Below the pieces are notes generated by a model. That model saw only the letters and a program-made list of their open reading frames with translations. It did not search any database and was not told the DNA's origin. The position numbers were made by a program, and so were the translations under genes. From contig NZ_PPTT01000007.1 of assembly GCF_003339815.1 (NCBI RefSeq), positions 62,001 through 126,000 of the forward strand: 64,000 nucleotides of DNA. The letters are read 5' to 3'. The DNA comes from Eggerthella sinensis (GTDB lineage: Bacteria > Actinomycetota > Coriobacteriia > Coriobacteriales > Eggerthellaceae). This document shows, one piece after another, positions 22,066-33,434 of this stretch. Positions within the stretch are counted from its first letter, which is position 1, and each line of letters begins with the position of its first letter.

Positions 22066-23406
22066 GTGGTTTCAAAACCAGCTGTCATGAAGGCGGGCTC
22101 CACGGCGAGCGGCGCCCTGTTCGGGGTGCTGCTCGCGCTCGCGTTGGCGCTTTGCATGCTGCCGACGCAGGCGTTCGCGTACTACAACCGTGGAAGCGTG
22201 TCGGTTGCTTTGGGAACCACGGCGGTCGAGGTGCAGGCGGGGGCGACGGCGAGCGCAACCGTTTCCATCACGCCGGCATCGGATGATCAGACGGAAGGCT
22301 GCGGCATGCCGAAGTGCCCGCAGGGATGCTCGGCGTCGTGCGCGGACGAGAACGGGCAGTGCCAGTGCTCGGGCTCCGACTACACCACCTACTATCCCAC
22401 GGCCGTTGCCGCATCGAGCAACGCGAGCGTGGCGGTGGCCACATGCGTTGGCGGCGCGCTCACCGTGTACGGCAAGTCCGAGGGCGAGGCCACCATCACG
22501 GTGCGCGCCTCGCTGCGCCAGTTCACGGATGCCGAAGCGACGCTCAAGGTGACGGTGTCGGGCAAGGCTGACGGCGCTGCGGCAGGCTCTGCGGAATTCG
22601 TCGACGTGCCCGAGACGGCGGCTGCGCAGCAGGCGGACAAGGCCGACGTGGTGGAGAAGACCGTCATGGGCCGTCCCGTGCACAACGTGCGCATCGGCGA
22701 CGCCTGCGACGTGACCGGTCGCCTCGCGCAGATGGCCGGCGTCGACGGCGACGTTATCTTCTGGCAGGGCGACACGTACTACCACCCCGCCTACTCGCTC
22801 ACGTTCAACGGCACGACGTACGACGCGCCGCCCGCGTCGTCGTTCGACGTGCGTCTGGACGTGACCACGGAGGCGCAGGGGACGCTGAACCAGCCGCTTA
22901 CCGGCGTGTCGAACTTCGTGGTGGTCGACTTCGCGCAGAAGGGCGACCTGTTCGCGCCGGCAACGGTGTACGCCTTGGCCGAAGGCGCGCTGAACGACGG
23001 AGACGCCGTGGCGCTGTTCTCGTACGACGATGCGGCGAAGGCGTTCGTGAAGGAAGAGGCCCCCGCGTCGGTGTCGGGCGGCTACGCCGTGTTCACCGCG
23101 CAGCAGGGCAAGACGTACGTGGTGTCGTCGCGCGATCTGACCACCGAGGCGAAAACGGTGGTCACGGGCGGCACGCCGTCCATGCAGCAGGGCGGCAGCT
23201 GCTGCGACCCCGCTCCGGCGGCCGCGGCGGAGACGATGCCCTCGTGCTGCGATACCGCGAATGCGAACGCGGTTCCTCCCTTCGTGTACGTTGCGGGCGG
23301 CGTGGTGGCCGCAGCTGCGGTGGCTGCGGCGGTTGTCGTGGTGGTGATGATGCGTCGCAAGAAGAAGGCTGAGACCGCCGACGCGTCGGATGGAAAGGAC
23401 GAGTAG
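22066..23406 (+). CDS. Six-Cys membrane-anchored surface protein A
   Basis: 446 residues, unknown function. Signal peptide (residues 1-38, ending TQAFA). Then a six-Cys module at residues 79-101 spaced C-x4-C-x3-C-x3-C-x6-C-x-C, followed by a Big_2-like Ig strand region (SSNASVAVAT, GEATITVRASLRQF). A second beta domain (VIFWQGDTYYHPAYSLTFNG) and a Ser/Thr region come next. Two CC pairs (GGSCCDP and PSCCDTA) lie just before a C-terminal helix, which ends in RRKKK. The module recurs in the next gene and in those at 25018 and 28793. The GTG at 22066 follows AAGGGGG. Metal or haem capture is inference. Confidence 0.75.
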   Translation: MVSKPAVMKAGSTASGALFGVLLALALALCMLPTQAFAYYNRGSVSVALGTTAVEVQAGATASATVSITPASDDQTEGCGMPKCPQGCSASCADENGQCQCSGSDYTTYYPTAVAASSNASVAVATCVGGALTVYGKSEGEATITVRASLRQFTDAEATLKVTVSGKADGAAAGSAEFVDVPETAAAQQADKADVVEKTVMGRPVHNVRIGDACDVTGRLAQMAGVDGDVIFWQGDTYYHPAYSLTFNGTTYDAPPASSFDVRLDVTTEAQGTLNQPLTGVSNFVVVDFAQKGDLFAPATVYALAEGALNDGDAVALFSYDDAAKAFVKEEAPASVSGGYAVFTAQQGKTYVVSSRDLTTEAKTVVTGGTPSMQQGGSCCDPAPAAAAETMPSCCDTANANAVPPFVYVAGGVVAAAAVAAAVVVVVMMRRKKKAETADASDGKDE

Positions 23407-23408
23407 GG

Positions 23409-32275: not shown

Positions 32276-32276
32276 C

Positions 32277-33434
32277 ATGCGCATCGAACGAACCATGACC
32301 CGCAGGGACTTCGCGCGCTTCGCAGCGTGCGCGGCCGCCTGCGTCGCAACGGGAGGGACGCTTGCGGGCTGCGCCGGAAACGGGTTCGCGCAGGGCAACC
32401 TGCGCACGGTGACCGACATGGCCGAGCGCAGCGTCATGGTGCCCGAGCTCATCGACCGCGTGTTCTGCACGAACCCCATCGGCACGGTGGACCTGTTCGC
32501 GCTCGCCCCCGAGAAGCTTGCCGGCTGGAACTTCCGTCCGGCGGGCGACAACAAGAAGTACATCCCCGACGAGTACTTCGCGCTGCCGTCGCTCGGCGTG
32601 TGGATGGGCGCGGGGTCGGTGCCGAACGCCGAGGAGATTGCCGCGCAGGACCCCGACGTGCTGCTGTGCTACTGGACGGCCGACGAGGTGGGCGCCGCGA
32701 TGGCCGACGACATCCGCGATCAGACGGGGCTGCCGGTGGTGGTCGTCGACTACGACGTGCGCCATGCGCCCGAGATGTTCCGCTACGTGGGGTCGCTCAT
32801 CGGCTGCGACGAGCGCGGCGAGGAGCTGGCCTCGTTCTGCGCGCAGAAGCTGTCGCTTATCGAGCGCGTTGCCGCGAGCATTCCCGAGAACGAGCGCAAG
32901 TCCATCTTCCTCGCTCAGGGTAACGACGGCCTGACCACCGACCCGGTGGGCAGCATGCACGTGAGCGATGCGCTCGAACTCGTCAACACGGGCAACGTGG
33001 CCGACATGCCCGGAACCGAGGGACAGGGCATGGGCATGCCCAGCGTCAACCTCGAGCAGATCATCACGTGGAATCCCGATGCGGTGCTCGTGGCCGAGTT
33101 CAACATGAGCGACTCGGAAAGCTCGGACATCCACGGCGCCATCAAGGCCGACGCGCACTGGAACAACGTGCCGTGCGTGAAGGCGGGGGAGATCTACCGC
33201 ATTCCCCAGTCGCCGTTCTCGTGGTTCGGCCGCCCGCCGTCGGCCGCGCGCATCCTCGGCTGCCTGTGGCTGCTCAAGGTGCTGTACCCCGCATATGCGG
33301 GCGACATCAACATGCGCACCGAAACCATCGACTTCTACCGCACGTTCTACCGCTACGAGGGCTTCGACGAGTACACGCTCGAGCAGCTGCTCACCGCCGC
33401 GGGCATCGACAGCGAGACGGGCGAGAAGCGCTAG
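32277..33434 (+). CDS. FecB-type (iron-complex) solute-binding lipoprotein
   Basis: 385 residues. N-terminus TRRDFARFAACAAAC with lipobox LAGC: a Tat-type lipoprotein signal, so it may be exported folded or with cofactor. Two-lobed cluster-A binding protein: NPIGTVDLFALAPEKLAGWN in the first lobe, AAQDPDVLLCY, and FSWFGRPPSAARILGCLWL in the second, a motif of the metal- or haem-complex binding group. Last gene of the importer operon; the ATG at 32277 follows GAAAGGATG. The ligand is inferred only from family. Confidence 0.9.
   Translation: MRIERTMTRRDFARFAACAAACVATGGTLAGCAGNGFAQGNLRTVTDMAERSVMVPELIDRVFCTNPIGTVDLFALAPEKLAGWNFRPAGDNKKYIPDEYFALPSLGVWMGAGSVPNAEEIAAQDPDVLLCYWTADEVGAAMADDIRDQTGLPVVVVDYDVRHAPEMFRYVGSLIGCDERGEELASFCAQKLSLIERVAASIPENERKSIFLAQGNDGLTTDPVGSMHVSDALELVNTGNVADMPGTEGQGMGMPSVNLEQIITWNPDAVLVAEFNMSDSESSDIHGAIKADAHWNNVPCVKAGEIYRIPQSPFSWFGRPPSAARILGCLWLLKVLYPAYAGDINMRTETIDFYRTFYRYEGFDEYTLEQLLTAAGIDSETGEKR

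Follow-up and report, generated by a model that had tools for sequence, protein, structure and literature searches.

A candidate surface relay of six-cysteine/Big_2-like proteins linked to a class II importer in Eggerthella sinensis and relatives

Background

Surface relays that feed FecBCD importers have so far been known for haem. In the Isd system of Staphylococcus and relatives, a small Ig-like domain is repeated on wall- and membrane-anchored proteins, and these are encoded together with a FecBCD-family end. A comparable arrangement is described here for a genomic island of Eggerthella sinensis, located in a 64,000 nt stretch of contig NZ_PPTT01000007.1 (positions 62,001–126,000, hereafter the window), in which a wall-type surface protein (A) precedes genes B to J (Table 1), encoding four proteins with a module of six Cys residues and a Big_2-like Ig segment (B, C, D and F), an ABC ATPase (E), a lipoprotein with a His-x-His (HxH) domain (G) and an importer (H, I and J). 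We consider, with moderate confidence, that these genes encode a surface relay that delivers to a class II importer and includes an ATP-driven step. Unlike Isd, this system has its module also on the transporter protein D, and the module-fused ABC pair (D/E) and the HxH lipoproteins are additional. The repeated domain is six-Cys/Big_2 and not NEAT, which gave no match in Pfam scans of A to G, and no haem oxygenase gene was recognised in the island. By analogy, the system appears to work like an Isd-type relay, and in lacking a NEAT domain it is not a member of the Isd family.

Several other described systems share parts of this make-up. The Shr-Shp-HtsABC system of Streptococcus pyogenes likewise leads from a large modular surface protein, with HID and leucine-rich repeat (LRR) domains, to a lipoprotein-FecBCD importer, whereas in the system described here NEAT was not found, the HID match is weak, and a core with a predicted sulfite-oxidase (SUOX) fold is present instead. 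MolBCA (HI1470-1472), a class II molybdate importer, is of the FecBCD type and has a binding protein distantly related to J, but the nearest solved relative of J is 4pag, and MolBCA has no surface relay. A protein resembling A, with the SUOX fold, is found beside FecBCD in Eggerthellaceae relatives, a likeness to HmuYRSTUV and to FecBCD loci linked to ExbB and DUF2149, whereas CobN, ExbB and DUF2149 are missing from this island. Sulfite oxidase, YedY/MsrP and PruR resemble the core of A in its predicted fold, with a Cys at the spacing of the YedY molybdenum ligand; unlike other SUOX-fold proteins, A is a Sec-type surface protein with a large helical insert and a core that is repeated up to three times. 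Finally, NosDFY and related ABC-2 pairs that act on extracytoplasmic partners offer a conceptual parallel, in that an ATPase and a permease serve a metal-handling module outside the membrane, although D is unmatched by the ABC-2 profiles of Pfam and has a module of its own.

A preliminary description of these genes knew of no described system with this make-up, and our checks of Pfam, NCBIfam, PDB and the literature also found no named system. The relay looks like a combination of two conserved binding-type modules, both absent from the libraries searched, with an apparently ATP-powered extracellular step. The identity of its cargo would show how gut Eggerthellaceae obtain a scarce metal in the competitive, anoxic gut, and would reveal what several protein families without an assigned function do.

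Results and discussion

Conserved six-cysteine modules in a cluster of overlapping genes

In each of B, C, D and F an exported six-Cys segment precedes the Ig-like half, and the Cys spacing falls in two classes: C-x4-C-x3-C-x3/11-C-x6-C-x-C in B and C (class I) and C-x5-C-x4-C-x-C-x8-C-x-C in D and F (class II). An alignment of 26 copies of the module, taken from the window and related loci, showed six Cys in 26/26 copies, with C1, C2, C3, C5 and C6 as invariant columns. Also conserved were a Pro (invariant), two Gly (invariant or nearly so) and the Met of a CGM motif (24/26). To judge from this alignment, such conservation of Cys among proteins of ~40% identity is far beyond chance. The Ig-like half was recognised as Big_2-like in a profile search against PDB (LigA, E 7e-4), with a sub-threshold Pfam sequence match, and its AlphaFold fold gave Z scores of 8–11.5 to SbsC, Big_2-CBM56 and lambda gpV. 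B, C, D, F and G have no family in Pfam or NCBIfam, and the module, the permease half of D and the HxH domain are all unnamed in Pfam, NCBIfam and PADLOC. Outside the module, B also displays a juxtamembrane SCC...SCC thiol cluster (Cys 379/380/394/395; window 23200–23250).

The genes B to J overlap or abut (junctions from −20 to +12 nt). Terminator-like sites within the cluster do not exceed the shuffle background. The preliminary description was exact in reporting four genes with the six-Cys and Big_2-like module in two spacing classes, and in following overlapping or abutting genes through the lipoprotein to an iron-complex-type importer. The extent of its unit was right for B to J and too short as a whole, since the island is larger and includes A, an HMA-domain gene and a LuxR-type regulator that had been missed. 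Its fusion of the module to an ABC-2 permease is present in D, but the ABC-2 assignment has no profile behind it and the permease is unfused in four other loci.

HxH lipoprotein, class II importer and ABC pair

Lipoprotein G belongs to a group of 11 related domains, in all of which the HxH motif is invariant (11/11), together with an invariant Arg. The HxH[F/Y] domain also occurs in the A proteins of loci L031 and L045; in L037 and L146 it is carried by separate secreted proteins. L037 additionally encodes a divergent Tat-type FecB. A PDB profile search with the HxH lipoprotein returned nothing useful. Downstream of G, a FecCD permease, a FecE ATPase and a Peripla_BP_2 lipoprotein are encoded together, and by Pfam the class II importer set is thus complete. 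The nearest NCBIfam relatives of ATPase I are F420-0, corrinoid and haem ATPases, none of them over cut-off, and the nearest PDB entry to the binding protein J is 4pag (7.6e-39), with a weak match to HI_1472 (MolA; 6e-13) that is limited to the C-terminal part and indicates a distant relation.

Protein D has one transmembrane (TM) segment after its module, followed by about nine further TM segments (~10 after the signal peptide). Neither an ABC-2 nor any other Pfam profile matched the eight permease members of the D family, and a PDB profile search with the permease also gave nothing useful; D is called a putative ABC-2 permease because of its ~10 TM segments and the adjacent ATPase. The permease is a separate, unfused gene in L034, L035/L044, L037 and L045. 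Since its linkage to the module is kept despite reordering and gene fusion or fission, the permease is likely to be tied to the module functionally and not just physically.

A predicted sulfite-oxidase fold in surface protein A

Protein A contains a Listeria-Bacteroides repeat (PF09479, 2.3e-12) and a weak HID-like part with a match below cut-off. Homologues of A adjoin the system in G001, in Gordonibacter and in the Clostridiales locus L045, and the Gordonibacter protein (1951 aa) has its own N-terminal six-Cys module. The core of A (A-core, approximately residues 215–480) was modelled with a predicted template modelling score (pTM) of 0.76, and in a fold search with this model the top 27 rows were all SUOX (Z 9.6–6.0), the next unrelated fold having a Z score of 3.7. 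The matches included sulfite oxidase (Z 9.6 over 148 residues, 3.6 Å), SoxCD (9.3), PruR (8.5) and YedY (7.0). The fold was missed by Foldseek alone and recovered by VIA-align, and SUOX was undetected in the A-core by sequence profile; the SUOX fold of the A-core is hence a prediction from the model. One Cys is invariant in the seven core copies of alignment A7, and its context, C-x11-G-V-x-L-x2-L, resembles the context of YedY Cys102, C-x11-G-F-x-L-x2-L, a likeness at the level of sequence spacing; Cys102 is the molybdenum ligand of YedY.

The A-core is otherwise limited to loci with the system, with the exception of divergent copies beside FecBCD, mostly together with MotA/ExbB and DUF2149, in other Eggerthellaceae. 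Five FecBCD loci with MotA/ExbB and DUF2149 (L109, L136, L137, L138 and L141) resemble the system in a simpler form and appear related to it; SUOX-like A proteins are present in 4/5, several of these loci also encode giant surface proteins, and no adjacent CobN was found. Upstream of the six-Cys genes in L034 and L035/L037, BspA-type LRR proteins replace the SUOX-type A.

Distribution of the system

A profile of the full module searched against 138 Eggerthellaceae genomes detected seven genomes, all of which have the system, the other matches covering only the Ig half. A permease-profile scan of 84,980 species identified seven loci, two in Gordonibacter, four in three Eggerthellaceae/Coriobacteriaceae metagenome-assembled genomes (MAGs) and one in a Clostridiales MAG, the permease of the latter having 32% identity. 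All module-bearing loci, from six Eggerthellaceae relatives (L031–L037) and the Clostridiales MAG, encode the ABC pair or at least the permease of it; G and FecBCD are present in all but the contig-truncated ones, so that the co-occurrence of the module with FecCD-type importers, which the preliminary description had put forward as a check, was found wherever the contig allows. Gene order, fusion or fission and domain content vary among the loci. Loci L035/L044 and L037 are from one MAG, which thus carries the system twice. A MacB-type ATPase has been added to the operon in L034 (8025–9923, with an FtsX permease) and in L035 (12537–13385), which suggests a second, mechanotransmission pump.

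Proposed relay mechanism

The six-Cys and HxH domains recur on wall and membrane proteins, and this recurrence gives the system the architecture of an Isd/NEAT relay. The relay architecture is well supported by the gene set, its conservation and the shared domains; from these we infer the order and direction of transfer, the use of ATP and the cargo. Protein A would capture a metal or a metal-bearing ligand at the surface, the membrane-anchored modules of B, C and F and the HxH lipoprotein G would hand it inward to J, and H and I would import the cargo delivered by J. As the D permease and a module are on one polypeptide, ATP hydrolysis by the D/E pair probably acts on the module, moving or unloading it outside the membrane, rather than on export of a solute. 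In the cytosol, the HMA protein may serve as acceptor or buffer for the metal. The divergently encoded TM-LuxR regulator may switch the unit on.

Cargo of the relay

The preliminary description had proposed capture and relay of a metal, haem or a corrinoid. A capture and relay linked to FecBCD is supported by co-occurrence and shared domains; our first candidate for the cargo, to which neighbourhood and fold point, was not on that list. This candidate, which we advance tentatively as the most likely single one, is molybdenum or tungsten as a chelate, a thiolated species or a pterin complex. In four genera modD is no more than ~8 kb away from the system; outside the window it lies beside the system in Gordonibacter and in G078, and in L036 it follows FecB directly, 93 bp downstream. 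Because of L036, modD was retained as linkage evidence. The gap between modD and the system in Gordonibacter holds homologues of ModA, ModB and ModC and a double-TOBE molbindin. The Clostridiales locus L045 encodes DUF364, a family with a genome context of molybdate, tungstate, vanadium and iron transport (PMC2954201). The predicted SUOX fold of the A-core, shared by molybdenum enzymes and the pterin-binding PruR, was also counted toward molybdenum, as were the YedY-like spacing around its Cys and the distant relation of J to the molybdate-binding HI_1472. The host family relies on molybdenum enzymes, also for the drug and polyphenol chemistry of gut Eggerthellaceae (PMC7028382). Whether the whole is a new surface-to-cytoplasm acquisition system for organic, thiolated or pterin-bound molybdenum or tungsten, combining six-Cys/Big_2 and HxH domains, SUOX-fold capture, ABC-driven extracellular hand-over and class II import, we regard as a rather doubtful, if possible, extension.

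A number of observations weigh against molybdenum or tungsten. The modD gene is also present in non-carriers, and its proximity may therefore reflect the insertion site. The HxH and six-Cys motifs and the HMA protein are better matched to a soft cation than to an oxyanion. The Cys loop was modelled with low confidence (predicted local distance difference test, pLDDT, 43–56), at which three disulphides and a metal site are indistinguishable. The N-termini of A contain no twin-arginine translocation (Tat) motif, so that A could not receive molybdenum cofactor (Moco) in the cytosol and any binding of a cofactor must occur outside the cell. Carriers possess MoaC and ferrochelatase, markers of Moco and haem synthesis, so that an auxotrophy for either cofactor is unsupported and does not account for the island. 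A corrinoid cargo was also considered, and nothing specific was found for it beyond generic FecCD/FecE similarity.

Uptake of haem or another tetrapyrrole, with A as a haemoprotein receptor, HxH binding the haem iron and FecBCD importing haem, is unlikely. The Isd-like relay and the weak HID-like match in A are in its favour, as are the SUOX-fold A-like proteins beside FecBCD with MotA/TolQ/ExbB and DUF2149 (L109, L136, L138 and L141), since ExbB and DUF2149 belong to the hmuYRSTUV haem operons (PMC10434189). However, the HID match is under cut-off, DUF2149 is absent from the genome of the window, no CobN/HmuS homologue was found among the large proteins scanned next to A-like genes, no haem-degradation gene was recognised in the island, and ferrochelatase is present in carriers.

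Import or delivery of copper or another soft metal is likewise an improbable role, in which the Cys/Met (CGM) and HxH motifs would pass Cu(I) to the HMA protein and D/E would be NosFY-like. The island includes the CopZ-like HMA gene, which in L036 is part of the operon itself, and the six Cys of all modules, the CGM Met (24/26) and the invariant HxH of G are all consistent with this role. It leaves the SUOX and modD links unexplained, however, and no genes for a copper exporter, cuproenzyme or sensor were recognised among the genes examined; to our knowledge, the cargoes of class II FecBCD importers are metal complexes, cobalamin and molybdate, and not free copper.

An even number of Cys would also fit structural disulphides, in proteins that function as adhesins or surface scaffolds with the importer as a co-inserted neighbour. 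Big_2 domains are common as adhesive scaffolds, and the LRR and Listeria-Bacteroides proteins are adhesin-like. We consider this quite improbable, given that the combination of module, ABC, HxH lipoprotein and FecBCD is strictly kept from Eggerthellaceae to Clostridiales (32% permease identity) and that the module is fused to a permease. Lastly, D/E as an exporter resembling lantibiotic-immunity efflux, in an island conferring resistance to a toxic metal or an antimicrobial, is most improbable: the nearest NCBIfam relatives of E are lantibiotic-protection and PmtA ATPases, far under cut-off, and an HMA protein is present, but a complete importer with binding protein is attached, and PADLOC gave only generic ATPase matches on parts of the island.

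Island boundaries and neighbouring genes

The system is located on a mobile island that is present or absent among congeneric species. In a blastn comparison with the non-carrier G003, the alignment stops at 17727 of the window and resumes at 33452, with 27 bp in between in G003, and the empty site is identical in G002, a second non-carrier of the same genus. In both, modD is directly followed by the sigma factor, anti-sigma factor and EF-G genes. The composition of the island is not distinctive (GC 0.677 versus 0.668).

Table 1. Positions in the window of the island, its genes and the flanking genes
Feature	Positions	Strand	Remarks
Genomic island holding whole system	17728-33451	.	~15.7 kb; blastn vs same-genus non-carriers
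HMA-domain (CopZ-like) metallochaperone	17796-18002	+	68 aa, GMHCPKC motif; PF00403 3.7e-16
LuxR-type regulator, N-terminal multi-TM domain (12-TM)	17997-19496	-	GerE 1.9e-17; divergent from A
A, wall-type surface protein	19671-21965	+	Start codon uncertain; TKTGD-TM-RRK C-terminus
B	22066-23406	+	Class I six-Cys/Big_2 module, second beta domain, C-terminal TM
C	23409-25037	+	Class I six-Cys/Big_2 module, second beta domain, TM, acidic tail; AF2 model
D	25018-28065	+	Class II six-Cys/Big_2 module fused to polytopic permease, large C-terminal extracytoplasmic domain
E, ABC ATPase partner of D	28078-28809	+	PF00005 6e-23
F	28793-29485	+	Class II six-Cys/Big_2 module, C-terminal TM
G, lipoprotein with His-x-His-Phe domain	29485-30393	+	Invariant Arg, HxH[F/Y]; alignment A5
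H, FecCD-type permease of class II importer	30393-31478	+	PF01032 3.1e-83
I, FecE/BtuD-type ATPase	31475-32275	+	PF00005 8.8e-32
J, Tat-type (TRRDF) substrate-binding lipoprotein, FecB family	32277-33434	+	PF01497 8.4e-17
modD, flank outside island	16810-17733	+	TIGR01334 204.6 bits, over cut-off; ancestral neighbour
Sigma factor and anti-sigma, flank	33540-35770	+	Also in non-carriers (L167, L174)

The HMA gene is missing at the empty site of G002 and G003, and in locus L036 it sits between FecE and FecB. The regulator is of the TM-LuxR family (PMC9734109), and its orthologues are in a matching position in G001 and Gordonibacter. Being present in non-carriers, modD was rejected as a member of the island for this genus and is an ancestral flank. 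The sigma and anti-sigma genes had been considered as a FecIR-like regulator of the system, which was rejected with both present at the empty site; because they are shared with non-carriers they are not part of the system. An Rfam scan of the window and six related loci detected no riboswitch. Outside the island, the window has a long open reading frame of 1040 aa without a Pfam match (10396–13518).

Elsewhere in the genome of the window, tandem NIR_SIR (dsrAB-like) genes were noted (G000:C10:24668-26464), with equivalents in the carriers G001, G065 and G067; they are missing in the non-carriers G002 and G003 and in the carriers G078, G111 and G132. A link of these genes to sulfide and thiomolybdate is possible. 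In Gordonibacter, an IS110-type transposase gene (L172:11247-12329) separates the ModC and molbindin genes at the edge of the island.

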